Positions 5,846 to 29,395 of a stretch of DNA of 60,705 bases are shown piece after piece (within the stretch, counting starts at the first letter, position 1; every line of letters begins with the position of its first letter). The notes under the pieces were generated by a model that was not told where the DNA came from, searched no databases, and worked only from the letters and a program-made list of their open reading frames with translations. The translations under genes were made by a program, and so were the position numbers. The stretch lies in the NCBI RefSeq assembly GCF_000332315.1, contig NZ_KB235938.1, positions 204,380 through 265,084 of the forward strand, written 5' to 3'. The DNA is from Prochlorothrix hollandica PCC 9006 = CALU 1027 (GTDB lineage: Bacteria > Cyanobacteriota > Cyanobacteriia > Prochlorotrichales > Prochlorotrichaceae).

Positions 5846-5878
5846 GGGGATGATTCCAGGTGCCCCCCTGATGTGGGT

Positions 5879-7411: not shown

Positions 7412-7429
7412 GGCAAAATCAGGGCAAGG

Positions 7430-8176: not shown

Positions 8177-8617
8177 AATTGTCCATGTTCCTGGGTAGCA
8201 ACGTAAGCCGGGAAAAAGACCATGGAAAAAAGGACTGTGGTGATGGCATACCACAGCCCCAGGGCTAGCCTCCCCCATGAACCCAATAACCCAGGGATCA
8301 TCCCCCATGGGGCAGATGACCGGATGGATGACCGGGTACTTTAGGTGAGAAGGCTTCTGATGAACGGCTTAAAGGACGTTCATGGAAACGGAAACAGACC
8401 CAGCAATGAGTAAGTCTGTTTCCGTCAAAGACTTTAACCTCTTATCGCCAAAGCAGGAGGTTAAGAGATTACGTCTGGGGCTTTATGCCCTAGGGCTAAG
8501 ATTTTATGGATCTAGGGGAACCCGTGCTTGGTTATTCCAAGACGCTCCAGTGGTTCGCACTGGATAGCCGCGATCGTAGGGCTACGCTTAAGCCCGTTTC
8601 CCCTCCGCCCCCATCGT
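8177..8617. other. Gap with strong inverted repeats between convergent MBL and speD genes
   Basis: No supported gene. It holds a perfect 11-bp inverted repeat CGGAAACAGAC (8389-8399) and GTCTGTTTCCG (8414-8424) with a 14-base loop. Further inverted repeats follow: AACCTC..GAGGTT at about 8440-8465, GCCCTAGGGC at about 8486-8500, and GGGCT..AGCCC at about 8577-8594. The clustering suggests a structured transcript or a mobile-element remnant; see findings. Confidence 0.5.
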
Positions 8618-9043: not shown

Positions 9044-9662
9044 TTCACCTATCCCCTAATTGGCCAGATAAAGAGCTAAGTTGTTGTGCCCAGAGGAAGC
9101 ACGGCGATCTGACTCCCATTAGATTGCTCCGAATTTTAACCAAGAGTCACCGCTGGGCGGAGATTATTCTTAGGGTTGCGGATTGGTCTATTTGGAAAGG
9201 TTGGACAGGTTTTGAAGGGGCGGACGGGGTGTAGGAGCGATCGTCTCCCAAACACCAGAGTTTGCCGTAATACACACCCCAGAAGATTTGAGATCGCGGC
9301 AGCGCTACCGACTCAAATACTCCCTGGGCATGGATTGCAGCTAGCTAGAAATTGTCTACAGAAATTTTCTTTAGACGAATGTTACCCCCCCAGAGTTCAG
9401 GCTGAGAATTTTGTGTTCCCATCCTGTCCGCCGAGTTTCCAATACGTTGATTGCCAGGGTCACCATTTCGCTCTTGATCACTTTGGTTGCCTAAGGTCTG
9501 AGGAACAGAAACGAACTCAAGACAGGGGCTTTCGGGTTCTCGCCAGCTCAGCTTCTCGTGAGAATATCTTAGCTACTTGGCACACGAGACAACAGCTCTT
9601 AATCTTACGGTATTTAGTTGCATTTGGCTATAGTTGTGGCCATATTTTTTAGGCTGGGGTTC

Positions 9663-9742
9663 GGGTATCAACTTAAGCCGGGACAGTGGGGCGCTCCGCG
9701 CCCCACTGTCCCGTTAATCTTGTCCCGCTTAAAACGGGAACC
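9663..9742 (+). repeat. Family A palindromic element, copy 2
   Basis: The element begins GGGTATCAACTTAAGCC, has the central palindrome GGGGCGCTCCGCGCCCC and ends near CGGGAACC. It is bounded by the 9-bp direct repeat CTGGGGTTC (9654-9662 and 9743-9751). Confidence 0.85.
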
Positions 9743-9855
9743 CTGGGGTTCTGGGGAAATTAAGGATCCCGGAGGGGATGGGCCGGCAGGGTGGTCGATC
9801 GCCCCAGGATGGGGCTGGCCTGTGATGGAGATGGCCTGTGATGGAGATGGCCTAT

Positions 9856-9958
9856 TACAGCAGTCTGAAATGGGTCGTGTGGTGTGCACCCTCCGGGCGC
9901 ACACCACCCAAGGGGTTTCAGCGATCGAGATCCTTACAACTGATTTAGGGTTGCTGTA
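9856..9958 (-). repeat. Family C MITE-like element, copy 2
   Basis: Ends TACAGCAGTCT and GGGTTGCTGTA, with a central GTGTGC..GCACAC hairpin. TA lies at both ends (9856-9857, 9957-9958). Confidence 0.85.
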
Positions 9959-10210
9959 TGGCCATGGCAATTTCTGTAAAAATTCAGGAGAAGATATTAC
10001 CTCAAGGGAAAAGTCAGGATTTATAAAGTTTCTTTAATAAAAATTGACTTTATGTTACATTCATGAAAGTAAGTCTTGGGCCACACCCTTGACCCACAGC
10101 CAGCCAGTGACCTGGATGATTCCAGACGGCCCTGGTTTAGGACGTGTCATGGGTCTACCTTGGCTTTCTTTAGCCTCGATCTTTAATATCTGCGTCTGCG
10201 TACCAGTGCC

Positions 10211-10831
10211 ATGAACATTAGCCAGCTTTTAGGTTGTTATGCCCAAGGTCAGCGGGATTTCCCCAATTTTTGTTGCTCCCACTGTGACCTAAGTGAAGTC
10301 AACTTAACGGGAATTAGGCTGAAAAACGCCCAGATTATCTGTGCCAATCTCAGTTTGAGCCAATTGGGGCAGGTCAACTTGACTGGGGCAAATCTGTCGG
10401 GATCCAACCTTTGGCGGGCTAACCTGAGGGATGCGGTGTTGGTGGGTGCCCAGTTAGGGGGGGCGGTGTTGATCCGTACAACCTTGGTGCAGGCTAATCT
10501 CCAGAATGCCAGCCTAGGGCGGGCAGAATTGCGTTTGGCCCAGCTTCAGGGGGCGGACTTACGGGGTGCCAACTTACGGGAGGCAGATTTGCGCTATGCC
10601 GACTTACGGGGTGCGGACTTGCGGGGTGCCCAGTGCCAAGGGGTAGACTTGACCTGCGCTCGCTTAGCGGGTGCCCAACTGGAGGGGGCTGATTTCCACC
10701 ATGCCGTGTTCGATCGCGTCAACTTCGATACTGATTCCCTCCATCCCTACTGTTCAAGCCCTGAAATGGCGATCGTGACCCCGGCGATCGTTGCTCCGGC
10801 GATCGTGACCCCGGCGATCGTCTGCGGATGA
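10211..10831 (+). CDS. Pentapeptide repeat protein
   Basis: A 206-residue protein with A(D/N)LxX pentapeptide repeats from about residue 35 to 170 (ADLRGANLREADLRYADLRG and neighbours). These predict a right-handed quadrilateral beta-helix. The N-terminus NISQLLGCYAQGQRDF is a typical short cap of cyanobacterial members and there is no signal peptide, so it is probably cytoplasmic. The last 20 residues are a second, unrelated repeat, (T/A)PAIV four times. It is encoded by successive CGGCGATCG words, so a HIP1-like word array has become coding sequence. The biochemical role is unknown. Confidence 0.88.
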   Translation: MNISQLLGCYAQGQRDFPNFCCSHCDLSEVNLTGIRLKNAQIICANLSLSQLGQVNLTGANLSGSNLWRANLRDAVLVGAQLGGAVLIRTTLVQANLQNASLGRAELRLAQLQGADLRGANLREADLRYADLRGADLRGAQCQGVDLTCARLAGAQLEGADFHHAVFDRVNFDTDSLHPYCSSPEMAIVTPAIVAPAIVTPAIVCG

Positions 10832-10866
10832 CCATCGTGTTAACCCGTTAAGGAATCCCTAAACCC

Positions 10867-11205
10867 ATGACTGAACCTCAACCTCTTGCCCCCATTGTTT
10901 TGCCCCCCTCCACCAACCCTGAGAAGGAAGGGGAATGGTTGTTGTCCTCCCTCCACCACTGGTTGGACACGGAGTTTTTGCCAGAGCCGGTTAATGCAGA
11001 GATTGCGGCCCGGGCCAGCCAGGTTTTTGTGCGACAACGCATGGAGGGGGAAAATGATTTAGGGGCATTGGTCATTGCCTTGGTGGTGGAGATGGGGAAC
11101 TTTGACTTTTCCAAGAGCTTTTATGGGGAATTTGCCGTTGCCAACGCGGTGAGTGATTTGTTGCTGGATAGTTTAGGCATTGAGCATTGCTGTGGCCAGT
11201 CTTAG
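10867..11205 (+). CDS. Conserved hypothetical protein
   Basis: A 112-residue soluble, acidic, helical-looking protein. It contains WLDTEFLPEPVNAEIAARAS, VRQRMEGENDLGALVIALV and FDFSKSFYGEFAVANAVSD, with two adjacent cysteines near the C-terminus (EHCCGQS). The sequence has the look of a conserved cyanobacterial protein, but I cannot assign a function. It follows the pentapeptide gene by 35 bp in the same direction, so co-transcription is likely. Start ATG 10867. Confidence 0.7.
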   Translation: MTEPQPLAPIVLPPSTNPEKEGEWLLSSLHHWLDTEFLPEPVNAEIAARASQVFVRQRMEGENDLGALVIALVVEMGNFDFSKSFYGEFAVANAVSDLLLDSLGIEHCCGQS

Positions 11206-11562
11206 GTGGCCAGTCTTATGGGGAAAGATCCTGAGCGGGAATCCTCTAGGTCAGCACAGCCTCAGGGTGAATGCTGAGGGACTGACAAAACTGGCTAGAA
11301 TCCCGCACCCCCGGTAGGGTTAGGTTTCCTAACTGCTACATCGATCAAAACCCGGTAGGGACGGGGTTTCCCCGCTCAATGCAGAATCCTTTGTCAGTCA
11401 ACCCGGGATAAATGTCAAGGCCCGTAACAAAGCAACCTGGACTCTTAACAGAAGCTGACGGGCTTTCCCCCTCGATCGTATAGTTGGTACAGCGATCGGC
11501 TCCCGACAGGGGAGACCAAGGTTCACCCAGTTTTATATCCAGCTTTGTAAGAAAGGAATTCC
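11206..11562. promoter_or_regulatory. Upstream region of the universal stress gene
   Basis: No gene is seen in 357 bp. A hairpin CCTCAG..CTGAGG (about 11261-11280) may end the preceding transcript. A -10-like TATAGT lies at about 11480 with no clear -35. A GAAAGGAA Shine-Dalgarno (about 11551-11558) precedes ATG 11563. Confidence 0.35.
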
Positions 11563-12471
11563 ATGTTTCAGCGGGTCCTAGTTTGTACCGACTTTCATGA
11601 TGGCATTCAGCGGTTAACCCAATTTATTCCAGAACTGGCTGCCTCAGGTCTTCAAAAGCTCACGTTTTTACACTGTGTTCCCCTATGGGAAGAAGGGGAA
11701 ATTCCCCGGCCCAATCTACCTGTTTTGAAGCAAGCAGAGGAGCGATTGCAGCAGGCTTGTCAACGGGTTGAGTCCCAGATCCCTGACTCCAACCCCATTG
11801 ACGTGACCTGGGAAGTGCGATCGGGATCCCCCAATGACAACATTATGCAGGTGGCTGAAGCCCTAGACGTGGATGCCTTGATCCTGGGATCCACCACCCG
11901 TAATTTTCTGACTGAAAAGCTTTTTGGTAGCACAACGGCCACCTTGGCCCATCGCCTCCACCGCCCCCTGTTGACCCTGCGACCCCAGTTGATTTCCACC
12001 TATACCCAAGGGGAGTTGGCGTTGCGCTGTCAATTTTTGTTTCGCTATTTGCTGCTGCCTTTTGATGGCAGTGTGGCGGGGCAATATTTGGTGCAACAGG
12101 TGAAGCACTATGTCCAGCGCAGCCGGGAAATGGCCGGGGGAAAGACCGTGTTGGAACAGTGTTTGCTGTTGTGGATTATTGATGATGCAGCGCGGCGGGT
12201 TCCCCAGGATTACCACACGGAGCATCGGGAGGAGCAGTTGGCAGCGGCCCAGGCGGAACTCCAAGCCCTGGGGCTGACGGTGACCACAGAAATTCGTAGA
12301 GGTGAACCGTTGAGAGAACTGTTAGATGCGGCGATGAATCACGATATTAGTGCGATCGCCGTTTCCTCCCGCAAAGCCAATGCCCTCTTGGATTGGTCTG
12401 TGCCCAGCTTTGGCAATGAGGTGATGCGCCAGAGTTGGCATCCGGTGCTATTTTTCCCCCCCCAGCCCTAG
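11563..12471 (+). CDS. Tandem universal stress protein
   Basis: A 302-residue cytoplasmic protein made of two UspA-like domains, about 1-145 and 165-300. The first has the phosphate-binding-type pattern LILGSTTRNFLTEKLFGST followed by HRPLLTLRP. In the second the corresponding stretch is AVSSRKANALLDWSVPSFG and lacks the glycines, so only domain 1 looks able to bind nucleotide. AAAGGAA lies just before the ATG. Its last 24 bases overlap the end of the convergent def gene. Confidence 0.85.
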   Translation: MFQRVLVCTDFHDGIQRLTQFIPELAASGLQKLTFLHCVPLWEEGEIPRPNLPVLKQAEERLQQACQRVESQIPDSNPIDVTWEVRSGSPNDNIMQVAEALDVDALILGSTTRNFLTEKLFGSTTATLAHRLHRPLLTLRPQLISTYTQGELALRCQFLFRYLLLPFDGSVAGQYLVQQVKHYVQRSREMAGGKTVLEQCLLLWIIDDAARRVPQDYHTEHREEQLAAAQAELQALGLTVTTEIRRGEPLRELLDAAMNHDISAIAVSSRKANALLDWSVPSFGNEVMRQSWHPVLFFPPQP

Positions 12472-12981
12472 GATACGGCTGCGCCATTCCGGCTCTGTCA
12501 TTAAATCGGTGGTGGCGTTGACTCGATCGAGGAAAACCAGACCGTCCAAGTGATCCAGTTCATGTTGCACAATGCGGGCCACAAAATCCTCGAAGCGTTG
12601 GCGTTGGGGTTGGCCTTGGCGATCCAGAAACGACACCTCGATCCAGGAGTGGCGGGGTACGAAGCCCCGCAGTCCCGGTACACTCAGGCACCCTTCCCAA
12701 TCCTGAACCTGGGTTGCACCGCGATCGAGGATCTGGGGATTAATCAACACCAGGGGATCCATGGACGGTGCCTGGGGATAGCGATCGTTGGGGCGCGACG
12801 CAATAATCACCACCCGCTGGGACTGGCTCAGTTGGGGGGCAGCAATACCCACCCCTGGGCCTAGGTGCTCCAGGAGATCCGCGATTAAAGCCTGAACCTG
12901 GGGATCTAAGGGATCAGCAATGGCTTGGGCAGGGTGGCGCAGGATGGGGTTACCCAGGTGGACAATGGGGATGGCAGGCAT
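12448..12981 (-). CDS. def: Peptide deformylase
   Basis: Removes the N-formyl group from nascent proteins. All three signature motifs are visible: GVGIAAPQ (residues 43-50), EGCLS and QHELDHLDG, which supply the metal-binding cysteine, two histidines and the catalytic glutamate. The 177-residue length is normal. The start is ATG 12979-12981. The 3' end overlaps the convergent stress-protein gene by 24 bp, so the two transcripts will be mutually antisense at their ends unless terminated precisely. Confidence 0.95.
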   Translation of the reverse strand: MPAIPIVHLGNPILRHPAQAIADPLDPQVQALIADLLEHLGPGVGIAAPQLSQSQRVVIIASRPNDRYPQAPSMDPLVLINPQILDRGATQVQDWEGCLSVPGLRGFVPRHSWIEVSFLDRQGQPQRQRFEDFVARIVQHELDHLDGLVFLDRVNATTDLMTEPEWRSRILGLGGEK

Positions 12982-13059
12982 AGGCTAGGGCAGTGGGGGG
13001 CGTTGGGAATATTCGTGGCAAAAAGTTTAGGGGGCGATCGCAAACGGGACAAGGTTAGC

Positions 13060-13065
13060 TATACT
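13060..13065 (+). promoter_or_regulatory. Possible -10 box for tRNA-Leu
   Basis: TATACT lies about 100 bases before the tRNA in the def-tRNA gap. No matching -35 hexamer was seen, so this is tentative. Confidence 0.3.
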
Positions 13066-13166
13066 AGCTAAGCGGTGGCATCTAACGGTTTGGAGCTTTC
13101 TGATGTAGCCTAAGGCGGCATTAACGTTAAGCTCAGAACAAATCTTCAGATGTCAACACTAAATAC

Positions 13167-13248
13167 GCGGATGTGGTGGAATTGGTAGACACGCACGCTT
13201 GAGGGGCGTGTGGCTAACGCCTTGCGAGTTCGAGTCTCGCCATCCGCA
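13167..13248 (+). tRNA. tRNA-Leu (anticodon GAG)
   Basis: The acceptor arms GCGGATG and CATCCGC pair perfectly. The D-loop carries GGTGGAATTGGTAGAC. The anticodon stem CACGC/GCGTG encloses TTGAGGG, giving anticodon GAG, which reads CUC/CUU. There is a long class II variable arm, and the T arm GCGAGTTCGAGTCTCGC is intact. The CCA end is not encoded. Confidence 0.96.
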
Positions 13249-13266
13249 TTGTATATAGAACAGTGG

Positions 13267-13294
13267 GGGATAGCGACACAGCTATCCCTTTTTT
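13267..13294 (+). terminator. Rho-independent terminator of tRNA-Leu
   Basis: A perfect 8-bp stem GGGATAGC/GCTATCCC with loop GACACA is followed at once by six T. It lies 19 bases after the tRNA. A family A element has inserted right behind the T tract and its flanking duplication copies the T run. Confidence 0.9.
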
Positions 13295-13300
13295 GTGGTT

Positions 13301-13375
13301 TCCGCTGACAGCGGGACAAGATTAACAGGACAGTGGGGCGCTCCATGCCCCACTGTCCCGGCTTAAGTTGATACA
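13301..13375 (-). repeat. Family A palindromic element, copy 3
   Basis: A 75-bp reverse-orientation copy ending GGCTTAAGTTGATACA. Flanks are CCCTTTTTTGTGGTT (13286-13300) and CCCTTTTTTGGGGTT (13376-13390), a 15-bp direct repeat with one mismatch. The left copy is the terminator T tract. Confidence 0.85.
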
Positions 13376-13405
13376 CCCTTTTTTGGGGTTGTTATTTGAT
13401 GGTTT

Positions 13406-14131
13406 TTAGGGATTGCGACGATGGTTGTGGGGATTGCCAAAATCTGGCCGATTATCAGTACCGGCATCCCCCTGTTTTTTAGCATCCCGCCGCTGTTTAT
13501 AGTCTTGCCAACTGGTACCCGGCGCACCGCCTTCTGTGGCATCTGTGGCCCTCTTAGGGTTGTCAGAGGCGCGGTCATGGCGGCGTTGCTTATAGTCTTG
13601 CCAGGGTTTGCCAGAGTGGCCCATATCTATGTCGGCTGGCATAAAACCATGGCTAGGTTTTTCCGGCTGCTCTGCCCCATGGATCCGTTGCCAAGACTGG
13701 GTGGGGGTGGGTGACTTTGGTTCTGGTAATTCTGCAATGACCTGTTTCAGAGCTGTTTCCAGCAGTCGAGGCAGATCCTGCCACTGAATGCCCTCATCCT
13801 GGAGCAGTCTTCGTAACTCTGCTAAGGCCAAATGCTTGGGATCTTCTTGGAGGGGACGAAAATCGTGGAGAGGATGCTGATAAATGGTCTGAATTGCAGT
13901 GTGAACCCCCTGCCGGATGGTGAGGCGCAGTTCATGCTCCGCCCGTTTCAACTGTTCTTCAAAGCCTCGCTCTGTGCAGGCATAAAAGGGCTTAAGGCGA
14001 TTGAGCACATAGGTGACCACTTGAATGGAGGGAATGGATCCGGTCACATTGAGGGGAAGCTTACTGAGTTGATGCTCAGTTTCCTGTTCCACTAAAAGTT
14101 CGACGATGTTGCGATATTGATACTCAGCCAT
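13406..14131 (-). CDS. ComFB-domain protein with C-terminal WQDYKQRR repeats
   Basis: A 241-residue protein. The N-terminal 100 or so residues match the late-competence ComFB domain: IVELLVEQETEHQLSKLP, then VVTYVLNRLKPFYACTERGF and LRLTIRQGVHTAI. ComFB proteins have been reported as cyclic-dinucleotide receptors in cyanobacteria. The second half is a polar, probably disordered tail. It carries two copies of the motif (S/G)xxWQDYKQRR(H/D) (about residues 175-185 and 210-220), the second from an internal duplication. It may be a signalling or motility adaptor; the binding function is inferred only from the family. Confidence 0.78.
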   Translation of the reverse strand: MAEYQYRNIVELLVEQETEHQLSKLPLNVTGSIPSIQVVTYVLNRLKPFYACTERGFEEQLKRAEHELRLTIRQGVHTAIQTIYQHPLHDFRPLQEDPKHLALAELRRLLQDEGIQWQDLPRLLETALKQVIAELPEPKSPTPTQSWQRIHGAEQPEKPSHGFMPADIDMGHSGKPWQDYKQRRHDRASDNPKRATDATEGGAPGTSWQDYKQRRDAKKQGDAGTDNRPDFGNPHNHRRNP

Positions 14132-14212
14132 ACCTATAACCCATGTGTTTCATACCTTGATCCCCTGGCTCTTATTTCCTATCTCGTAATCCTTTCCTAT
14201 CTCGTAATCCCA

Positions 14213-14314
14213 TACAGTAGTCCTAAATCGGTCGTGTGGCCTGTGCCCTCTGGGCGCACACACCCAAGGGGTTTTAGCCGTCGAGATCCTTACAACTGAT
14301 TTAGGGTTGCTGTA
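14213..14314 (-). repeat. Family C MITE-like element, copy 3
   Basis: About 102 bp with TACAGTAGTCC at one end and GGGTTGCTGTA at the other, between the divergent ComFB and NuiA-like genes. TA is present at both borders. It lies in the upstream region of both genes. A short 18-bp duplication (TTTCCTATCTCGTAATCC) precedes it at about 14175-14210. Confidence 0.85.
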
Positions 14315-14387
14315 TAAGGTATTGATACAGTATCGAAATCCAGACCCAGACTTTATAGATAGCATCGCAATCGGAGAGTGCTGCCCC

Positions 14388-14849
14388 ATGTCCCAGGATG
14401 CCAAACTGCTCGAACAACTGAAGCAGAAGGTTCAAGGCTTGATTTATCAAAGTGAGATGGATGCCCGTTATCGCCCCTTCTCCTGGCGTGTGGATGGGTT
14501 CCTAACTCCAGCAGTGGTTTTACGAAAGCTAAACCTATCCCCCCGTGTTGCGATTCATCCCTTAAATCTGGAGATGTTCTTCCAAAATGTGGTGAAACCG
14601 TTGACCCCCTGTTCGGATCTGGATCACACCCCCTCCGTCCATCGGGCTAGCCAAACCGCCATTGATGTTGTTGATGTGGATCCTGCACAACAGGCTCACC
14701 GGGGTCAACTCCTGGTGACGTGGCTCCAGGATAACTTACAGGAGTTGCAAGTGTTCCAGGTGGGTCAGGTGGATACAGAGTTGGTGGTGGTGGGTCGTGC
14801 CTCTGAAGACCGGTGGCTGGGGCTACAGATTCAAGTGGTGGAAGCCTAG
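14388..14849 (+). CDS. Nuclease A inhibitor-like protein (NuiA family)
   Basis: A 153-residue protein resembling Anabaena NuiA, the tight-binding inhibitor of the sugar-nonspecific nuclease NucA. Matching stretches are LLEQLKQKVQGLIYQSEMD, PFSWRVDG, LNLEMFFQNVVKPLTP and the C-terminal FQVGQVDTELVVVGR with LGLQIQVVEA. I chose the ATG at 14388 because GGAGAG lies 10 bases upstream and the protein then begins like the family. The open frame extends 81 bases further into the family C repeat. No nucA-like gene lies in the window, so the partner is unknown. Confidence 0.75.
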   Translation: MSQDAKLLEQLKQKVQGLIYQSEMDARYRPFSWRVDGFLTPAVVLRKLNLSPRVAIHPLNLEMFFQNVVKPLTPCSDLDHTPSVHRASQTAIDVVDVDPAQQAHRGQLLVTWLQDNLQELQVFQVGQVDTELVVVGRASEDRWLGLQIQVVEA

Positions 14850-14859
14850 GGAGGGAAGT

Positions 14860-15696
14860 CTAGGGTAGCCAGGGGAACTGCCGAAAGTCCGGATCCCGCT
14901 TCTCCAGGAAAGCCTGTTTCCCTTCGCTACCTTCCTCGGTCATGTAATAGAGTAAGGTGGCATTGCCAGCCAGTTCTTGGAGTCCCGCTTGACCATCACA
15001 GTCAGCATTAAAGGCTGCTTTGAGGCAGCGGATGGCGATCGGACTTTTCTGGAGGATTTCTGAGGCCCATTGGACCCCTTCGGACTCTAATTTTTCTAGG
15101 GGGACTACCGTATTCACGAGTCCCATGGCTAGGGCTTCTTGGGCATTGTACTGGCGACAGAGATACCAAATTTCCCGCGCTTTCTTCTGGCCAACAATGC
15201 GGGCTAAGTAGCTAGAGCCAAAGCCTCCATCAAAGCTGCCCACCTTGGGTCCGGTTTGCCCAAAGATGGCATTGTCGGCGGCGATCGTCAGATCGCAGAC
15301 CACCTGAAGAACATGGCCCCCGCCGATGGCATAGCCTGCCACCAAGGCAATGACCACCTTAGGCATGGAGCGGATCAGTCGTTGTAGATCGAGCACATTG
15401 AGGCGAGGCACCCCGATCTCATCCACATAGCCCCCCTGGCCGCGAACACTTTGGTCACCACCGGAGCAGAAGGCATATTTGCCATCGGTATGGGGACCGG
15501 ACCCCGTCAGCAGGATGACCCCAATGCGGGAATCTTCCCGGGCATTACTGAAGGCATCGTACAGTTCAAAAACGGTTTTGGGGCGAAAGGCATTGCGTTT
15601 GTGGGGGCGGTTGATGGTTATTTTGGCAATGCCTGCCTCAGTTTTGTGATAGAGAATATCGTCGTAGGGTTTGGCGATGTGCCAGGTGATGCTCAT
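14860..15696 (-). CDS. menB: 1,4-dihydroxy-2-naphthoyl-CoA synthase
   Basis: Crotonase-family enzyme that closes the second ring of the naphthoquinone in phylloquinone (or menaquinone) synthesis, supplying the photosystem I quinone. The 278-residue protein shows [13 protein letters not shown], the oxyanion-hole segments [13 protein letters not shown] and [18 protein letters not shown], and [18 protein letters not shown], all typical of MenB. It converges on the NuiA-like gene with a 10-bp gap. Start ATG 15694-15696. Confidence 0.95.
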
Positions 15697-15789
15697 GGTG
15701 GCGTTGCAGTGTTTTTTAGATAGGGTTGGGGTTAGGCAGGGGGTACCCCAGGTTTATTGTGTCCTACGGGGGGACAGGGCTAGGGGAAG

Positions 15790-16025
15790 CGGTGAGGTGG
15801 ATGCGGGGTGTGGATGTGGGGTATGAGTGCGGGGTGTGGATGTGGGGTATGAGTGCGGGGTGTGGATGTGGGGTATGAGTGCGGGGTATGAGTGCGGGGT
15901 GTGGATGTGGGGTATGAGTGCGGGGTATGAGTGTGGGGTGTGGATGTGGGGTATGAGTGTGGGGTGTGGATGTGGGGTATGGGTGTGGGGTGTGGGTGCG
16001 GGGTATGAGTGCGGGGTATGAGTGT
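15790..16025 (+). repeat. GT-rich minisatellite upstream of trxA
   Basis: About 230 bp built from irregular combinations of GGGGTGTGGATGT and GGGGTATGAGTGC units (12-13 bp each). The strand is almost free of C outside the unit ends. It lies just upstream of the probable trxA promoter and encodes no credible protein. Confidence 0.85.
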
Positions 16026-16110
16026 ATCTAAATATGTACAGTCTGTGCCATAACGCGGCGAAGTTCGCTATGGTAATATCCTGATGAAAATGGAGGCAAG
16101 GGTATCAAGC

Positions 16111-16434
16111 ATGTCAGCAGCCGCAGCCGTCACCGACGCTACATTTAAGCAGGAAGTTCTTGATTCTGAACTTCCGGTACTAGTTGATTTCTGGGCACCC
16201 TGGTGTGGTCCCTGTCGTATGGTAGCCCCTGTGGTTGATGAAATTGCAGGCCAGTATGAAGGCAAGGTTCGAGTGGTTAAGGTTAACACGGATGAAAACC
16301 CCACAGTAGCCAGCCAATATGGGATTCGCAGCATTCCCACTCTCATGATTTTCAAGGGAGGTCAGCGGGTTGATATGGTCGTGGGAGCCGTGCCCAAGAC
16401 GACTTTGGCTGACACCCTGGAGCAGTATTTATAG
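16111..16434 (+). CDS. trxA: Thioredoxin (m-type)
   Basis: Small cytoplasmic dithiol-disulfide oxidoreductase that distributes photosynthetic reducing power. The protein has the active site WCGPC at residues 31-35, VDFWAP before it, and the conserved cis-Pro loop [11 protein letters not shown]. With the start at 16111 ([12 protein letters not shown]) it is 107 residues, the usual length. Two upstream in-frame ATGs (16084, 16090) would add a short basic extension without family support. A TATGGTAATAT sequence at about 16069-16079 could be the -10 region. Confidence 0.93.
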
Positions 16435-17144
16435 GACATCACTCGCAGGCTGGGCTGTGACCTCCCCCTTGGGAAAGTTCGCTCCATTTTTGGGAGAAGT
16501 CTGATGGGAACTGCCACAGTTTCCCTGCTGTTCCGTAATTCTGGGGGTAGTCCTGGGGTTGATGGGTGTGAGGTATGACCGTAGGTCTGCGATCGTTCTC
16601 GATCGTCAGCTTAGGATAGGGCAGACGATGGCTGTGCAGATGAACTCATCTAGGTGGCCGGGTACATCTCGCTTGGGTTGCCCTCACCCTAAATCCCTGT
16701 CCCAGAATGAGAGAAGGACTTTAACGTTCTGGCTCCCCGTCTCCCGCCCTGGGAGAAGGGGCTGGGGGATGAGGGATAACGTTCTGGCTCCCCGTCTCCC
16801 GCCCTGGGAGAAGGGGCTGGGGGATGAGGGATGCAGAGCAAGTTGCCAAACTGGGATGCTCCCAGGTGTCCCCTTGGTCCGGTTGGGCAGGGATAGACCT
16901 TGGGGTTGCGGATAGTTTTTTGGGAAGCCTTGTACGGGTTGCAGCGTGGTTCGTCACCACCTCAGTCTGTGGAAGGCTTTCTTCGTTTGACTCCCTAGGG
17001 TCAGGTTGCCGCTGCCCGCAGGACAAGATTAACGGGAAATGGGGCGCGGATCGTCCCACGCTTCCGCCTTAAGTTGCTAGCCCTAGGGTCATGGTAAGCT
17101 GCTAGGGTTTGGGATTGGAACTCCTTAGGGATAGGACTTTTTCC
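16435..17144. other. Intergenic DNA with a 55-bp duplication
   Basis: No supported gene. A 55-bp unit beginning AACGTTCTGGCTCCCCG occurs twice in tandem (16723-16832). Each unit contains the hairpin CTCCCGCCCTGGGAG, a common type of cyanobacterial intergenic repeat. Family A copy 4 follows at 17004-17080. Confidence 0.65.
17004..17080 (-). repeat. Family A palindromic element, copy 4
   Basis: A degenerate reverse copy whose central palindrome reads GGGGCGCGGATCGTCCC. Flanks share the 11-bp direct repeat CCCTAGGGTCA (16993-17003 and 17081-17091). Confidence 0.8.
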
Positions 17145-17906
17145 ATGGTTCACGCGCAACGTTCTCAGGCTAAACCGAGTCTCTCGCCCCTTGTCCTTTT
17201 GGCCCTTGGCTTTACCTTAGTGGCGATCGCCACCACGGACTTTTTGACCCTGACCTTCCCTCCCCAATGGGGCAGTACGGAATGGCGGTTGAGGTTGATG
17301 ACTCAACTGATCGATCGGGGTGCCATTCCCTTTATGGGACTGGCCTTCTTGTGTTTGGGCTGTTGGGTCAGTACCTATCAGCGCCAAGAGTTAGCCATTA
17401 AGCCCTTGGTGATGCGGGGTGTAATCTTGGGATCCTTGGGGTTAGCTCTGGTGTATGGGGGGATCACCCCGTTTTATTTCAGTGATAACCGCATGGCCAG
17501 TGCTCAAACGACCCAAGCTCTCAATGACCAGGCGGCCCAAGCAGAATTGCAATTGGATAATCGCCTCAATCAAGAGTTAGGACTCATTAGCAACCTCATG
17601 GACAATGAGGCCCAGTTGCAGCAGCAACTGAAGGGTCAAACCCTTTCGGGACCCCAGCAGGCCCAGTTGGACAAGGTTATGGAGCAGCTTAAGCAGTTCA
17701 AGGACGATCCGGCCACCTTGCAGCAGCGCACAACGGAAGCCCGCACCCAGGTTCTCTCGGAGATTCGCTTGCAAAAGGAGCAAGCCCAGGGGGATGCCCG
17801 CCATCGTTTTATTCGCGATGCCATTCGGCTGTCGTTGAGTAGTGTCTTGTTGGCGGCGGGTTATTTAACCCTGTCCATTATTGGTTTTCAGCAGGGGCGA
17901 GCTTGA
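17145..17906 (+). CDS. HpsJ-family membrane protein
   Basis: A 253-residue protein with hydrophobic segments at about 15-38, 60-75, 92-110 and 228-248. A long Gln-rich coiled-coil loop (about 125-225; QLQQQLKGQTLSGPQQAQLD and following) lies between the third and fourth. This layout matches HpsJ-like cyanobacterial proteins, named after a hormogonium polysaccharide locus. A link to polysaccharide or envelope is family-based only. ATG 17145 is preferred; an in-frame TTG lies 36 bp upstream. purN starts 11 bp after the stop, so they are probably co-transcribed. Confidence 0.65.
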   Translation: MVHAQRSQAKPSLSPLVLLALGFTLVAIATTDFLTLTFPPQWGSTEWRLRLMTQLIDRGAIPFMGLAFLCLGCWVSTYQRQELAIKPLVMRGVILGSLGLALVYGGITPFYFSDNRMASAQTTQALNDQAAQAELQLDNRLNQELGLISNLMDNEAQLQQQLKGQTLSGPQQAQLDKVMEQLKQFKDDPATLQQRTTEARTQVLSEIRLQKEQAQGDARHRFIRDAIRLSLSSVLLAAGYLTLSIIGFQQGRA

Positions 17907-17916
17907 GTTCTCAGTC

Positions 17917-18639
17917 ATGAATGCCATGAATGTATCGGTTCCGGCGGATCCTCAGCCTCTGCATCCCGGATTAAGCTCGGATCCAGGCAACGTTGACTTG
18001 GGATCTGCTGCCCTAGTCTCGCCTCTGCCCCATAGTCCTGGGGTAGTGAACTCACCAGTGAACTCGCCTCGGTTGGGGATTTTGGCTTCAGGTAGTGGCA
18101 GTAATTTTGAGGCAGTGATGCAGGCGATCGCCCAGGGGCAATTGCAGGCAGAGGCGGCGGTGTTGATTTATAACCAGCCAGGGGCTAAGGTTGCCGATCG
18201 CGCTCACCAGTGGCAGGTGCCGTCCCTGTTGCTGAACCACCGGGATTATGGCGATCGTGAAGGCTTGGATCGGGCGATCGTGGCGACCCTGCACCAGTTC
18301 GGCGTGCAATGGGTGGTGATGGCGGGGTGGATGCGCATTGTCACCCCCGTTCTCATTGAAGCCTTTCCCCAGCGGATCATTAATATTCACCCCAGTTTGC
18401 TCCCCAGCTTTAAGGGCATTCGGGCTGTTGAGCAAGCCCTCGCCGCCGGGGTCAGGATTGCAGGTTGCACCGTGCATTTAGTGGTAGCCGATGTGGATAG
18501 CGGGCCAATTTTAATGCAGGCTGCGGTGCCGGTTTTGGCTACGGATACGGTGGACACCCTCCACGCCCGCATCCAAGTCCAGGAACATCGTATTTTGCCA
18601 GCGGCCATTGCCCAGGCGGTGGCCAGCCAAGGGGGTTGA
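17917..18639 (+). CDS. purN: Phosphoribosylglycinamide formyltransferase
   Basis: Transfers a formyl group from 10-formyl-THF to GAR in purine synthesis. The 240-residue protein carries LGILASGSGSNFEAVMQAI (substrate loop), the catalytic INIHPSLLPSFKG with its Asn-His pair, and the conserved aspartate in VADVDSGPILMQ. About 45 residues precede the first conserved strand, and that part is Ser/Pro-rich with internal repeats (VVNSPVNSP); the core is normal. The start is taken at ATG 17917; a second ATG follows at 17926. Confidence 0.92.
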   Translation: MNAMNVSVPADPQPLHPGLSSDPGNVDLGSAALVSPLPHSPGVVNSPVNSPRLGILASGSGSNFEAVMQAIAQGQLQAEAAVLIYNQPGAKVADRAHQWQVPSLLLNHRDYGDREGLDRAIVATLHQFGVQWVVMAGWMRIVTPVLIEAFPQRIINIHPSLLPSFKGIRAVEQALAAGVRIAGCTVHLVVADVDSGPILMQAAVPVLATDTVDTLHARIQVQEHRILPAAIAQAVASQGG

Positions 18640-18735
18640 AGACGGCCCGCAGGGGTCTAGGCTCTTGATCCAAAGCTTAGGCATTTAGGGTAGTCTGGTG
18701 TTGGCCTAACGCTGAAGTATTATTAAACCGTCCCA

Positions 18736-19233
18736 ATGACTGCCGTAATAGAACCGTCCACCCTATCGCCTGAACCCGCTGAAACTCCTCCAGCGTTAGA
18801 TTTACCCATTCCTGTGGAGCGGATCCAGGGACTGTTACCCCACCGCTATCCCTTTGCTTTAGTCGATCGCATCATTGATCTCGTGCCTGGAAAACAAGCG
18901 ACGGGTATCAAAAACGTCACGGTCAATGAGCCTCATTTCCAGGGCCATTTTCCGGGTCGTCCCCTGATGCCAGGGGTGTTGATCGTGGAAGCGATGGCTC
19001 AGGTGGGGGGGGTGATTTTGGCCCAAATGCCTGACTACGGCAAGGCTCTGTTTGTGTTTGCGGGCATTGACGGTGTGCGTTTCCGTCGGCCTGTGGTGCC
19101 GGGGGATCAACTGATTATCACCACGGAACTGTTGACCATCAAGCGCAAGCGCTTCGGAAAGTTGCGGGCCATTGCCAAAGTTGATGGGCATATGGTGGCG
19201 GAAGGTGACCTAATGTTTTCGCTGCTGGAGTAG
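18736..19233 (+). CDS. fabZ: 3-hydroxyacyl-[ACP] dehydratase
   Basis: Dehydrates 3-hydroxyacyl-ACP in fatty acid elongation. The hot-dog-fold motifs [13 protein letters not shown] (catalytic His), [11 protein letters not shown] and [10 protein letters not shown] (catalytic Glu) are complete. An N-terminal 25-residue Pro-rich extension precedes the core; total length is 165. It heads the fabZ-lpxA-lpxB cluster, which links 3-hydroxyacyl supply to lipid A synthesis. The lpxC gene that often precedes fabZ in cyanobacteria is not here; purN takes its place. Confidence 0.95.
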
Positions 19234-19239
19234 TATCCT

Positions 19240-20040
19240 GTGCCCCACATTCATCCCACTGCCCTGGTGCATCCCGGCGCGGCCATCGACCCCACCGCGA
19301 CCATTGGTCCCTACAGCATTATTGGGGAACAGGTGAGTATTGGACCCGAAACCGTCATTGAGGCCCATGTGGTTATTGATGGTCACACGGATATTGGAGC
19401 CAGAAATCACATTTTCCCAGGGGTGACGATCGGTTTAGAACCCCAGGATTTGAAATATACCGGGTCCGATAGTCTGGTTAAAATTGGCGACGATAATACC
19501 CTGCGGGAATATGTCACGGTTAACCGTGCCACCGGCGAAGGGGAAGCGACGATCGTGGGTAACCACAACTTGTTGATGGCCTATGTTCATGTGGCCCATA
19601 ACTGTGTGTTGGCAGATCAGATTGTGATTGCCAACAGTGTGGCTTTGGCGGGCCATGTGGAAATTGAATCGCGGGCCGTAATTGGGGGCGTTCTGGGGGT
19701 TCACCAGTTTGTTCACATTGGCAAAATGGCCATGTTGGGGGGCATGAGCCGCATCGATCGAGATGTGCCCCCTTTCATGATGGTGGAAGGGAACCCGTCC
19801 AGAGTACGGGCCTTGAACCAGGTGGGCTTACGGCGGGCCGGGTTAATGGAGGCCGAGGGGGGCCAGATATTTCAAGCCCTCAAAAAAGCCTACCGCCTGC
19901 TCTACCGATCCAATCTGACCCTCAAGGAAGCCCTGGTGGCCTTGGAACCCTTACTGACGGTGGAACCGGTTCACCACCTGCACCAGTTTTTAACCCAGTC
20001 CCAAAGCAGCCACCGGCGCGGTCCGACGGCGGGGCGTTAA
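19240..20040 (+). CDS. lpxA: UDP-N-acetylglucosamine acyltransferase
   Basis: First step of lipid A synthesis. The 266-residue protein is a left-handed beta-helix trimer former with hexapeptide repeats from about 10 to 190 (IHPTALVHPGAAIDPTATIG and onward). It carries the catalytic histidine region AYVHVAHNCVLADQ, then VHIGKMAMLGG and a C-terminal helical domain. The start is GTG 19240, six bases after the fabZ stop, so the two genes are translationally close. A short basic tail (SSHRRGPTAGR) ends the protein. Confidence 0.95.
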   Translation: MPHIHPTALVHPGAAIDPTATIGPYSIIGEQVSIGPETVIEAHVVIDGHTDIGARNHIFPGVTIGLEPQDLKYTGSDSLVKIGDDNTLREYVTVNRATGEGEATIVGNHNLLMAYVHVAHNCVLADQIVIANSVALAGHVEIESRAVIGGVLGVHQFVHIGKMAMLGGMSRIDRDVPPFMMVEGNPSRVRALNQVGLRRAGLMEAEGGQIFQALKKAYRLLYRSNLTLKEALVALEPLLTVEPVHHLHQFLTQSQSSHRRGPTAGR

Positions 20041-23094: not shown

Positions 23095-23217
23095 TAACCC
23101 TGGTTCTATCGGTAACCCTGGTTCTATCGGTAACCCTGGTTCTATCGGTAACCCTGGTTCTATCAATAACCCTGGTTCTATCGGTAACCCTGGTTATATC
23201 AATAACCCTGGTTCTCT
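23095..23217. repeat. 18-bp tandem repeat array
   Basis: About seven units of AACCCTGGTTCTATCGGT, some with ATCAAT in place of ATCGGT. There are no spacers, so it is not a CRISPR. Confidence 0.9.
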
Positions 23218-23630: not shown

Positions 23631-23704
23631 GTTGTAAGCCGGGACAGTGGGGCGCGGAGCGCCCCACTGTCTCGTTAATCTTGTCCTGCTGCTAGCGGTA
23701 AGCC
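23631..23704 (+). repeat. Family A palindromic element, copy 5
   Basis: Central palindrome GGGGCGCGGAGCGCCCC and right end AGCGGTAAGCC are intact. The left end (TTGTAAGCC) is altered and no flanking direct repeat was found. Confidence 0.75.
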
Positions 23705-23835: not shown

Positions 23836-25830
23836 ATGAAGATTATCTTTGTTGCCTCTGACTTTTCCGGCCTAGGTAAAGGTACTTTTGGGGCTGCCCT
23901 CGGGCGATTGCTACGCTCCCATGGCATGAATGTTCGCATTATGAAATGTGACCTGTACTACAACTATGATGCAGGTACCATTAATCCTAAAGAACATGGT
24001 GAAGTGTATGTCCTGTCTAATGGTTTAGAAACCGACCAGGATCTGGGAATTTATGAGCGTTATCTAGATGTGGAATGTAATTCCTATGACTATGTAACCT
24101 CAGGGCAAATTCATCATCAGATTTATTTGAATGAACGATCGGGCCAATATTTAGGCCAGACGGTGTCCTTTGAACATGTCATCGAAGAAATAACCCGCCG
24201 TATTAGTCGCTTTGCTGAGCAGTGTGACGTGGGTATTGTGGAAATTGGTGCCACGATCGGAGACATTAAAGGAGTTTTCTTTTTAGAAGCCTGTCGTCAA
24301 TTGCGGGCTGAGTTGGGTCGTGTTAATTCCACCTTTGTCCTGTTGTCCCATTTCCCCTATCTGCCAAGCTGTGGGGAACTCAAAACCATGGGCTGTCAAC
24401 GTAGTGTTAACGATCTACGCAGTAAAGGCTTAAAACCAGATGTCCTGGTGGCTCGTACACCCCAGGATGTGAAACTGGATGATTATCTGTTTAAGAAGAT
24501 TGAACTGTTCTGTGAGGTACCCCGGCAGGCGGTGGTGCAGTTGGCGGATATTGAAAACTCCTATGAAATCCCGCTGCTGTTGCGATCGCTAGGGTTACAG
24601 GACTACTTAGCCAGCCATATGGAGTTGAAGCTGGGGGAAGACACCTTAAATGCCTGGTATAAAAAGTTTGATTTAAAACGGGATCTTAAAATAGCCTTGG
24701 TGGGCAAATATTCCCATGCCGATGCCTATGTGTCGATTTTGCATCAATTGCGGTTTCTTGGCATTGATAGCGTTGAGTACTTGTCTAATTTGAAGCTATT
24801 AACCCAGTTTGATGCGGTGATTATTCCTGGGGGTTGGGGCAAGCGGGGCACGGAGGAAATGATTGAAGCGGCCCGCGTTTGTCGCGAGAACCGGATTCCC
24901 TGCTTAGGGATTTGCTTGGGGCTGCAAATTATGGCGATCGAATATAGCCGTAATGTTTTGGGTTTAGAAGGGGCAAATAGCACCGAATTTGATGACGAAA
25001 CCCCCTATCCTGTGGTGGTGATGCAGGATGCCCAAAAGGAAATCCACGGCTTGGGGGGAACGGCCCGCTTGGGGGATTGGGTCACCCAATTGGTGCCCGG
25101 TTCCCTAGCCGCCAGTATTTATGGCAGTGAGGAAACGACCCAACGCCATCGGCACCGTTACGAAATTAGTTCTGACATTGAGTTTGGTAATTTCAAGGTC
25201 ACGGGACGGGATAAGAAAACCAACTTGGTGGAGGTAATGGAACTGCCGGATCATCCCTTTTATCTAGGGGTGCAGTTTCACCCAGAGTTTAAGCCCGGTC
25301 GCAATCCTGTGTTTGAAGGATTGGTGAAAGCCGCCGAGAATCGTAAGGTTCTCAATAGTCAGGATTTACGGTCTCTCAAGTCTGCTTTATATTCAGGAAC
25401 GCCCGGTACGTTTTTCGAGTGTTTGAATATTAATCAGCCCCAGGAACTGCGGCAAATTGTCGATTTAGATGATGATCAGCTTCAGCACTCCGGAATTTCC
25501 TACTATCAACAAAAAATCCTACGGGAGTTTCTTAAAATCTGGGATGAGAAACAGAACGTCATCGAAGAATTAGAACGGGAAATCAGCACCTGTGAGCGGG
25601 AAATGCGCCAGATCAACATCAATGAGAAATACTCGGTGGAGCATATGCCCCTGTCGGAGTTCGATCGCCGTATCCTTACCCAACTGCGTAAAGAGACGGA
25701 AACCAAAACCCAAAAGTTAAAGGAGCTGCGGTTCTTCTATCAAGAGCAAATGCAGCGCTTTGATGAGGAGATGAGCCGCACGTTCCAGTCGGAGGTTGTT
25801 CCCGCGATCGCCCCAAACGTGGTTGGTTAG
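23836..25830 (+). CDS. CTP synthase-like protein, divergent, with C-terminal coiled-coil extension
   Basis: A 664-residue two-domain protein on the PyrG plan, about 120 residues longer than usual. The N-terminal synthase domain has SGLGKGTFGAALGRLL (P-loop), KCDLYYNYDAGTINPKEHGE, ETDQDLGIYER and VEIGATIGDIKG. The glutaminase triad is present: PCLGICLGLQ (Cys360) and QFHPEF (His482, Glu484). The UTP-site motif KTKPTQ of standard enzymes reads KTMGCQ here (residues 183-188). Residues about 560-650 form a charged helical coiled coil absent from PyrG. It may be a paralogue with altered substrate or a regulatory/filament role; a normal pyrG is expected elsewhere. ATG 23836 fits the family start; an in-frame TTG lies 30 bp upstream. 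Confidence 0.82.
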   Translation: MKIIFVASDFSGLGKGTFGAALGRLLRSHGMNVRIMKCDLYYNYDAGTINPKEHGEVYVLSNGLETDQDLGIYERYLDVECNSYDYVTSGQIHHQIYLNERSGQYLGQTVSFEHVIEEITRRISRFAEQCDVGIVEIGATIGDIKGVFFLEACRQLRAELGRVNSTFVLLSHFPYLPSCGELKTMGCQRSVNDLRSKGLKPDVLVARTPQDVKLDDYLFKKIELFCEVPRQAVVQLADIENSYEIPLLLRSLGLQDYLASHMELKLGEDTLNAWYKKFDLKRDLKIALVGKYSHADAYVSILHQLRFLGIDSVEYLSNLKLLTQFDAVIIPGGWGKRGTEEMIEAARVCRENRIPCLGICLGLQIMAIEYSRNVLGLEGANSTEFDDETPYPVVVMQDAQKEIHGLGGTARLGDWVTQLVPGSLAASIYGSEETTQRHRHRYEISSDIEFGNFKVTGRDKKTNLVEVMELPDHPFYLGVQFHPEFKPGRNPVFEGLVKAAENRKVLNSQDLRSLKSALYSGTPGTFFECLNINQPQELRQIVDLDDDQLQHSGISYYQQKILREFLKIWDEKQNVIEELEREISTCEREMRQININEKYSVEHMPLSEFDRRILTQLRKETETKTQKLKELRFFYQEQMQRFDEEMSRTFQSEVVPAIAPNVVG

Positions 25831-25984: not shown

Positions 25985-27040
25985 ATGCTCAATTCCCTCA
26001 ATCTGCCCGAAACCTTAACTTGGAAAGCGGGAGAATTCTATCTGCTGGATCAAACCCAGTTGCCCTTAGCAACGGTGATTGAAAAACAGGAAACCCTAGA
26101 ACAGGTGTGGGATTCCATCAAGCGCTTGAAGGTGCGAGGTGCCCCCGCCATTGGGGTTGCTGGAGCCTATGGATTGGTGTTGGGTTTGCAGGGTAAGACT
26201 GACCTCGATCGCCCCCGGTTCTTGGCAGAACTAGAGCGTCAAGCGGCCTATTTAGACAGCGCCCGCCCCACCGCCGTTAACCTCCATTGGGCGCTAACCC
26301 GCATGGTAGAGAAGGCCAACGCCTTGGGGGATCTGCCGGTAGCCGATCTATATAGCCAGTTAGAAGCTGAAGCCATTCAAATTCACACCGAAGACCGCCA
26401 ACTCTGCCGTCAAATTGGGGAACAGGGTCAAGGTTTGATTCAGCCCCAGATGGGGGTTCTGACCCATTGCAATGCGGGTTCCTTGGCGACTTCAGAACTG
26501 GGTACAGCCCTCGCGCCCCTGTACTTAGCCCATCAAGGGGGGGTTCCCTTTAAGGTTTACGCCGATGAGACGCGGCCCTTGTTGCAGGGGGCACGGCTGA
26601 CCACCTGGGAACTACAACAGGCGGGTATTGATGTCACTCTCATTTGTGACAATATGGCGGCCCACCTCATGTCCCAAGGTCTGATTAACTTGGTGATTGT
26701 GGGCACCGATCGCGTGGCCGCCAATGGCGACGTGGCCAATAAAATTGGCACCTTGGGGGTGGCGATCTTGGCCCACTATTTCAAGATTCCCTTCTATGTG
26801 GCCTGTCCCTATTCCACCATTGATTTCCACACCCCCGACGGTCAAGCCATTGTGATTGAGGAACGGGGCGAGGAGGAAGTGACCCACTTTGGTCTCAAGC
26901 GCACGGCTCCGGAGGGAATGGCGGTGCGCAACCCTGCCTTTGATGTCACGCCCCATCATTTAGTGACGGGACTGATTACGGAGCGGGGGATTATTCGGTC
27001 TCCCTTGGCCACCAATTTGCAGCAGATGTATGCTTCCTAA
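25985..27040 (+). CDS. mtnA: S-methyl-5-thioribose-1-phosphate isomerase
   Basis: Methionine-salvage enzyme interconverting methylthioribose-1-phosphate and methylthioribulose-1-phosphate, within the eIF2B-like fold. The 351-residue protein has VRGAPAIGVAGAYGL, the catalytic-cysteine region LTHCNAGSLAT, the catalytic aspartate in VGTDRVAANGDVANKIGT and YSTIDFHTPDG. This favours MtnA over other eIF2B relatives. It would recycle the methylthioadenosine released by spermidine synthesis, to which speD in this window contributes. Confidence 0.93.
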   Translation: MLNSLNLPETLTWKAGEFYLLDQTQLPLATVIEKQETLEQVWDSIKRLKVRGAPAIGVAGAYGLVLGLQGKTDLDRPRFLAELERQAAYLDSARPTAVNLHWALTRMVEKANALGDLPVADLYSQLEAEAIQIHTEDRQLCRQIGEQGQGLIQPQMGVLTHCNAGSLATSELGTALAPLYLAHQGGVPFKVYADETRPLLQGARLTTWELQQAGIDVTLICDNMAAHLMSQGLINLVIVGTDRVAANGDVANKIGTLGVAILAHYFKIPFYVACPYSTIDFHTPDGQAIVIEERGEEEVTHFGLKRTAPEGMAVRNPAFDVTPHHLVTGLITERGIIRSPLATNLQQMYAS

Positions 27041-27124
27041 TTCTCAGTCGTAACCCCAGTTGTAACCCTAGTCGTAACCCTAGTCGTAACCCCAGTCGTA
27101 ACCCTTGTAACCCGCATTACCACC
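27041..27124. repeat. 12-bp tandem array between mtnA and ROK gene
   Basis: About six units of CAGTCGTAACCC with variants occupy almost the whole 84-bp gap. Confidence 0.85.
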
Positions 27125-28030
27125 ATGCTTAAGTCTGTCCCTGCCCCCGTGATTGGTGTTGATTTGGGGGGAACTGCCATCAAATTGGGTTGTTTCCAGC
27201 CTGACGGAACCCTAGTGGCGGAACGTCAAGTGCCCACCCCCCAGCCCAGTACCCCGGAAGCGGTGGTGGCGGCCATGGCGGCGGCGATCGCCGATTTGGA
27301 TCCCCAGAACCACGTCAAAACCATTGGGGTGGGGACCCCCGGTCCTGCGGATGCCCAGGGGCGTATAGCTAGAGTGGCCATTAACTTAGCAGGCTGGCAG
27401 GATGTGCCCCTGGCAGACTGGCTAGAGTCCCAAACCCAGCGATCGGTGATCATTGCCAATGATGCCAACTGTGCCGGGTTGGGGGAGGCGTGGTTAGGCT
27501 CCGGTCGATCGTTCCAGGATCTGATTCTCCTGACCCTGGGCACGGGGGTGGGGGGAGCCATTATTCTCAAGGGTGAATTATTTGTGGGGCGCGATGGCAC
27601 GGCGGCGGAATTGGGGTTAATCACCCTTAATCCTGATGGGCCGGCCTGCAATAGCGGCAATCAGGGTTCCCTGGAGCAATATGGGTCGATCCAGGCCATT
27701 GAGCGCCGCACGGGAATGGAGCCAGCCCTGTTGGGTGCCCGTGCCCAGGCGGGGGATCCGGAGGCGATCGCCTTTTGGCAAGCCTATGGTCGGGAGTTAG
27801 CAGCGGGCATTGCCAGTTTGGTCTATGTCCTGACCCCAGAAGCGGTGATTATTGGGGGCGGTATTAGCGCCAGTGCCCCCTTCTTTCTGCCGGCCCTGGA
27901 AGCGGAATTGCAGCGGCGGGTCTTGCCCAGTTCGCGTCAAGGGTTGCAACTGCGGGTGGCGGAACTTGGGAACCGGGCGGGGATGGTGGGGGCGGCGAAG
28001 CTAGCCTTGGTCCACCAGGGGCTTGGCTAG
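27125..28030 (+). CDS. ROK-family sugar kinase (glucokinase-like)
   Basis: A 301-residue cytoplasmic kinase. It has the phosphate-1 motif GVDLGGTAIKLG, NDANCAGLGEAWLGSGR (catalytic Asp), LTLGTGVGGAII, and EAVIIGGGISAS near the C-terminus. The ROK zinc motif CxCGxxGCxE reads CNSGNQGSLE, so three of the metal cysteines are missing; I have the impression that cyanobacterial members commonly lack them. Glucokinase activity is the most likely assignment. Its last 30 bases overlap the end of the convergent small gene. Confidence 0.85.
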   Translation: MLKSVPAPVIGVDLGGTAIKLGCFQPDGTLVAERQVPTPQPSTPEAVVAAMAAAIADLDPQNHVKTIGVGTPGPADAQGRIARVAINLAGWQDVPLADWLESQTQRSVIIANDANCAGLGEAWLGSGRSFQDLILLTLGTGVGGAIILKGELFVGRDGTAAELGLITLNPDGPACNSGNQGSLEQYGSIQAIERRTGMEPALLGARAQAGDPEAIAFWQAYGRELAAGIASLVYVLTPEAVIIGGGISASAPFFLPALEAELQRRVLPSSRQGLQLRVAELGNRAGMVGAAKLALVHQGLG

Positions 28031-28525: not shown

Positions 28526-28956
28526 CCAAAGTTAAAGGGATAGGGTTGGATCAGGGATGACCCATGGAGATCACCCATGGAGATCACCCATGGAGATCAC
28601 CCATGGAGACTCTCGCCCCCAAGGCTATCCAGGATCCCAGGATCATCGGATGCTTCCCCTAGTCTGGTTCTCCCCCTGGGGTGAACCGATCGCGATCTGT
28701 AGACTGCCATCGCGATCGTGGACGAACCAGACTAAAGGAACCAGACTAAAGGAACCAGACTAAAGGAACCAGACTAAAGGACTACGCTGGCTGTATTGTA
28801 CACAAGGATTTAGAACCGCGCAGACTGCCCCCCACTTTTCTAGGGGGATCTAGAGACCTTAAACGTCTTAGTTTTGGTGAAATTTACCGACTCAAGGCTC
28901 TGATATCCTCTATTACTGCTTTTCGATCTTGCTGATCTCAAATCCTGAAACTCTAC

Positions 28957-29201: not shown

Positions 29202-29395
29202 CAGGTTGCATGAAGATACAGCAACCCTAAATCAGTTGTAAGGATCTCGAAGGCTGAAACCCTTGGTGTGGTGTGCCCCCGGAGGGGGCACACCACACGA
29301 CCCATTTAGGACTGCTGTAGGTTGCATGAAGATAGGTTGCATGAAGATAGGTTGCATTAAAACAGGTTGCATTAAAACAGGTTGCATTAAGACGG
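29202..29395 (+). repeat. 15-bp minisatellite split by a family C element
   Basis: Units of AGGTTGCATGAAGAT and variants AGGTTGCATTAAAAC lie on both sides of the element at 29217-29319. Removing the element and one TA restores a continuous array. Confidence 0.85.
29217..29319 (+). repeat. Family C MITE-like element, copy 4 (diagnostic insertion)
   Basis: A 103-bp element including TA at both ends (29217-29218, 29318-29319), inserted within a 15-bp tandem repeat. The uninterrupted unit reads AAGATAGGTTGC. The left junction reads AAGATA then CAGCA, and the right junction reads GCTGTAGGTTGC, so TA was duplicated on insertion. Central hairpin GTGTGCCCCC..GGGGGCACAC. Confidence 0.92.

Follow-up and report, generated by a model that had tools for sequence, protein, structure and literature searches.

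The genome of Prochlorothrix hollandica PCC 9006 encodes a CTP synthase (CTPS) that lacks several of the residues with which this enzyme contacts UTP. The gene lies at positions 23836 to 25830 of the window (the whole 60,705-nucleotide stretch of DNA that was analysed) on the plus strand, as do the two genes that follow it, and it is the sole CTPS gene found in the genome. Judged from sequence, it probably represents the only, functional glutamine-dependent CTPS of this organism, belonging to a rare divergent clade with a rebuilt pocket for UTP/CTP. CTPS counts in textbooks as universal, and the CTP that it makes is a building block of RNA and DNA. None of the residues that contact UTP varied in any other CTPS that we examined, including phage enzymes at 33–41% identity. 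If the only CTPS of a free-living organism is short of several of these contacts, then either an acceptor site can be remodelled while the essential reaction is kept, or the enzyme has shifted its chemistry to a different substrate; both outcomes matter for nucleotide recognition, for CTP feedback and for the design of CTPS inhibitors. It is also possible that a gene of phage type has here taken the place of an essential core enzyme.

Domain structure and catalytic residues

Read from its ATG start, the gene encodes 664 amino acids (an alternative TTG at 23806 would add 10 residues). A strong, terminator-like inverted repeat of 16 pairs is located at 23640–23674, about 160 bases upstream of the start. 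The protein consists of a synthase (amidoligase) domain (aa 1–264, 23836–24627; CTP_synth_N, PF06418, matching aa 3–264), a class-I glutaminase domain with an intact triad (aa 301–490, 24736–25305; GATase, PF00117) and an additional C-terminal tail. Its score against the NCBIfam PyrG equivalog TIGR00337 (511.6 bits) is above the cut-off of 462.75, compared with 650–818 bits for three other phage CTPS, and in the comparison of genomes it reaches 274 bits versus 420–441 bits for the canonical pyrG products of 38 comparison cyanobacteria. The core was modelled confidently by AlphaFold2 from a 37-sequence alignment (mostly >90 pLDDT), and Foldseek matched the model to solved CTP synthases (best E 5e-53, TM-score to the targets ∼0.88). 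Domain order and fold are those of PyrG (TIGR00337; E. coli 1S1M, T. thermophilus 1VCO, M. tuberculosis 4ZDI), as are the catalytic lysines, the metal ligands, the glutaminase triad and the CTP-pocket residues E155, R158 and F227 (E. coli numbering).

The alignment places the ATP- and phosphoryl-transfer residues K18, K40, D72 and E140 among those kept, along with S14, D42, D147, K187, T188, Q192 and K223, and equivalents of the E. coli triad C379/H515/E517 are present. The earlier note, which was made from the sequence alone, had listed the complete triad and the metal-site stretches ETDQDLG and VEIGATIGDI as retained, and both observations are borne out. In E. coli CTPS, the exchange E155K abolishes feedback by CTP (PMC4126345); E155, the residue used here to assign the CTP-feedback class, is present according to the alignment. 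Retention of the catalytic set suggests an ordinary course of reaction, in which the C-terminal domain would hydrolyse glutamine and pass the ammonia through a channel to the synthase domain, where ATP would phosphorylate O4 of the acceptor before its amination. We infer that the enzyme produces CTP.

An altered acceptor site

Four segments of the synthase domain differ from PyrG. The P-loop ASDFSGLGKG (aa 7–16, 23854–23883) is one residue shorter than the canonical GGVVSSLGKG, and the replacement of GGV by SD plus a deletion was found in the compared set only here and in a phage protein, L041, described below. The TVS-FEH segment (aa 109–114, 24160–24177) carries Q114S, P117E and a one-residue deletion relative to the canonical TVQVIPH, the EIGATIGDIKG segment (aa 136–146, 24241–24273) carries G143A and E149K, the latter at a ribose contact (PMC8325340), and KTMGCQR (aa 183–189, 24382–24402) takes the place of KTKPTQH, with K189M and P190G at a site of UTP contact (PMC8325340). 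The canonical triphosphate motif K-[TS]-K-P-x-Q of the acceptor site and the ribose ligand E149 are thus both absent, and the protein has KTMGCQ and Lys145 instead. Both the altered UTP-site motif (KTMGCQ for KTKPTQ, aa 183–188) and the altered P-loop context had been noticed earlier and hold in the alignment. Both the linker and the glutaminase domain also carry deletions relative to PyrG, and a tail of ∼155 residues is added; overall identity is about 40–44%. Our literature searches retrieved no report of a CTPS with such an altered site.

In the Drosophila enzyme, the ribose of UTP is contacted by the residues equivalent to D147 and E149 and its triphosphate by those equivalent to K187, T188 and K189, with the Q114 equivalent reaching the triphosphate via water (PMC8325340); the E149 equivalent bonds the 3′-OH of UTP (PMC7619001). 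In the proposed pocket the triphosphate and ribose of the acceptor would be held by a different set of residues, with K189 exchanged for Met, E149 for Lys, Q114 for Ser and G143 for Ala and the P-loop shortened, while K187, T188, Q192, S14, D147 and K223 are retained; the new Lys145 may take over the charge lost at K189. Because the exchanges strike direct UTP contacts, they could equally mean that another acceptor is used, which counts against our preferred reading.

The exchanges were compared with 92 other CTPS (14 cyanobacterial sequences, E. coli, LR756511 and 76 from IMG/VR). In this set 92 alignment columns are ≥97% conserved, and 71 of them are kept in both the window CTPS and L041, 18 are lost in both and three in just one of the two, so that the shared loss of conserved columns is, in terms of sequence, more than chance. 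Ten positions invariant in 92/92 are changed identically in both proteins: G10S, Q114S, P117E, T120I, G143A, E149K, K189M, P190G, F353W and E465Q. With 42% of all positions different between the two proteins, the retention of these shared changes suggests selection rather than drift.

A relative on a phage contig

The pattern E-x-KTMGCQ-x-S-V retrieved a single IMG/VR contig, IMGVR_UViG_3300031673_016563, whose CTPS (L041) is 58% identical to the window CTPS over aa 1–507. The two have in common DFSGLGKG, TVS-xEH, GDIKG, KTMGCQR and the glutaminase deletions; L041 differs in lacking the C-terminal tail and in being encoded in an AT-rich phage genome. Genes for a terminase, a portal and a major head protein, a clamp loader, an NAD-dependent ligase, PurM, PurB and PurD (the last assigned by reading its sequence) identify the contig as that of a tailed phage, and both terminase and portal are similar to proteins of phages of 308–485 kb. 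The proximity of the PurM, PurB and PurD genes to the CTPS gene suggests a phage nucleotide-supply module, and the NAD-dependent DNA ligase occurs in several separate frames within bases 1–20000 of the contig.

The remaining phage CTPS (phrog_28378; LR756511 and the 76 IMG/VR sequences) share the fold and the catalytic residues, and the PHROG profile phrog_28378 matches the window CTPS at 439 bits. Unlike it, all of them keep E149, K189, P190, Q114 and P117 at only 33–41% identity. The window CTPS and L041 form a clade with 100/100 support on a long stem (∼1.7 changes per site), in line with the earlier proposal that the KTMGCQ form might be a clade of its own. The altered form is, on the evidence of these sequences, a real lineage with one cyanobacterial and one phage member known. 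Searches for more members gave three stretches with KTMGCQxSV in our genome contig collection, none of them a CTPS, and one further strong match among 386 genomes of the phylum, a canonical PyrG (KTKPSQ) outside the clade. Of four patterns run against viral contigs, three found only the known contig besides chance stretches and the fourth missed it though its DNA matches, so that these scans are not exhaustive.

Copy number, CTP supply and genomic context

The genome assembly (5.65 Mb, 13 contigs, 99.16% complete) gave a single match, the window gene, in each of two profile searches (CTP_synth_N and PyrG), searches which produced a match in 14/14 control genomes. A fragment search at E values up to 10 added just two matches of ∼10 bits, and a paralogue beside a canonical pyrG was rejected on these grounds. 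All 38 comparison cyanobacteria, versus this single divergent gene, hold exactly one canonical pyrG each. The earlier note had taken the gene for a paralogue and expected a housekeeping pyrG elsewhere in the genome; neither expectation is supported, and as the only CTPS found the gene is best read as a divergent housekeeping enzyme, the reading which that note itself had reserved for such a case. No uridine/cytidine kinase scored over the curated cut-off in the genome, so that the cell has no evident way to obtain CTP by salvage; the two matches below the threshold fall in frames of 320–338 aa, presumably phosphoribulokinase-like proteins given their size. If the acceptor had changed, the cell would be left without a known source of CTP, unless a gap in the assembly hides a canonical pyrG. 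A match to the window CTPS was absent from nine of 390 sampled cyanobacterial genomes, and the Pfam CTPS model found none in any of the five of these nine to which it was applied (0/5), four of which are drafts in hundreds of contigs. Since at least five of the 390 show no CTPS, a canonical pyrG hidden between the 13 contigs is an unlikely but possible artefact that counts against our reading. One cyanobacterial genome (G142) is without any CTP_synth_N match in a single contig of 3.8 Mb at 99% completeness.

The CTPS gene is followed by an mtnA-like gene (25985–27040, PF01008), which we take to encode a methylthioribose-1-phosphate isomerase, and by a ROK-family kinase gene (27125–28030, PF00480), 1.3 kb from the CTPS gene. 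The ROK orthologue stands directly next to the canonical pyrG, in convergent orientation, in at least nine other cyanobacteria of seven families (G017, G024, G033, G036, G050, G104, G106, G126 and G128), and it is a probable ancestral neighbour of pyrG. Compared with that arrangement, the window CTPS gene lies on the other side of ROK, on the same strand and with mtnA in between, which speaks against a simple allelic swap. A remnant of a canonical pyrG in the window was also considered and rejected (18 CTPS searched by tblastn gave a best E of 0.12 beyond the CTPS gene itself). Short tandem-repeat arrays with units of 12–18 bp surround the CTPS-mtnA-ROK block (23095–23215, 27045–27104, 28556–28609, 28724–28781 and 29318–29392) and are possibly linked to rearrangement there. 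Further along the window, 44674–45891 encodes a protein that resembles IS200/IS605-type OrfB/TnpB, as judged from its N-terminal sequence alone.

Function and origin

That the gene is the sole CTPS is supported by the single match, where each of the 38 relatives has its one canonical copy, by the lack of an obvious kinase salvage route and by the ROK neighbourhood shared with the canonical pyrG of at least nine genomes in seven families, and its function as a CTPS is argued for by the kept catalytic residues, the passed PyrG cut-off, the fold match and a phage homologue with the same pocket. A decayed or non-functional enzyme, to which the loss of otherwise invariant residues might point, is very improbable given the full-length open frame, the intact catalytic residues, the same substitutions in a homologue differing at 42% of positions and the lack of any other CTPS in the genome. 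A more serious competitor, though we consider it improbable, is an accessory enzyme acting on another acceptor (e.g., dUTP, a modified uridine nucleotide or a non-triphosphate form), with the canonical pyrG hidden in an assembly gap: K189, E149, Q114 and G143, invariant in 92/92 others, are changed identically in both clade members, the equivalents of E149 and K189 contact UTP directly (PMC8325340) and that of E149 bonds its 3′-OH (PMC7619001), and some cyanobacterial genomes have no detectable pyrG. However, a 99.16% complete genome yielded no second CTPS, the ROK gene that neighbours canonical pyrG is close by, and D42, D147, K187, T188, Q192, K223, E155, R158 and F227 are all kept. Taking the divergent but functional CTPS as the preferred reading, we tentatively raise the broader idea of a second acceptor-site solution, by which a lineage of a phage and one cyanobacterium aminates another nucleotide or holds UTP with new residues, and has there replaced the otherwise universal PyrG.

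As to origin, either a phage-like source would have replaced the canonical pyrG, or a resident copy would have diverged greatly and been picked up by a phage. We give about an even chance to transfer, in which a CTPS derived from or carried by a phage took the place of the resident pyrG and gained its tail later. The nearest relative lies on a tailed-phage contig, the gene has a GC content of 47.5% and a GC3 of 50.6% (GC of the window 54.5%, GC3 of three neighbouring genes 62–67%), and in the unconstrained tree the protein falls outside the cyanobacterial PyrG clade on its long stem. Yet only one such phage contig is known, the probable ancestral neighbour of pyrG is found close to the gene, and the AU test rejects neither a grouping with cyanobacterial PyrG (p = 0.26) nor one with the large phage-CTPS group (p = 0.53). 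The locus near ROK and the standing of the cyanobacterial grouping in the AU test would suit rapid divergence of the resident pyrG in an isolated cyanobacterial lineage, with a phage capturing a copy from a relative, an origin that we regard as possible but less likely, because the identity to cyanobacterial PyrG (≤44%) is about equal to that with Bacillus or Cetobacterium PyrG (42.6–42.8%), the stem spans ∼1.7 changes per site and the GC content is low.

C-terminal tail and filament contacts

The extra tail (aa ∼505–664, 25348–25827) is predicted by AlphaFold2 to form mostly a long helical hairpin, with helices at 556–602 and 608–662 modelled at moderate confidence (pLDDT mostly 55–80). The extra coiled-coil domain described in the earlier note thus finds its counterpart in ∼155 residues with two predicted long helices, and the filament-forming role suggested there is weakened as far as the known E. 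coli interface is concerned. E. coli CTPS filaments are held by contacts of the linker helix 274–284 and the glutaminase helix 330–336 (PMC4126345). The window CTPS is shortened in the region of the latter helix, and both contact segments are partly deleted in it and in L041 (E. coli positions 279–282 in the linker and 333–338; 320–324 also in the window CTPS), which makes polymerisation control of the E. coli type unlikely. The helical tail may offer a new surface for self-association or partner binding.

No Pfam family matched aa 505–664 over its curated cut-off, and weak coiled-coil matches were the only ones seen. Against a profile of the N-terminal region of cyanobacterial TPR proteins the tail scored 13.0 bits, compared with a maximum of 6.6 in 500 shuffles and with 15.5 for an unrelated coiled segment of a peptidase. 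These TPR proteins (L168–L187) are ∼620–660 aa long and share a conserved N-terminal domain with the motif GTGEIFERCL; about half of 145 cyanobacteria encode a single protein of this kind, and the copy that we checked contains TPR repeats.
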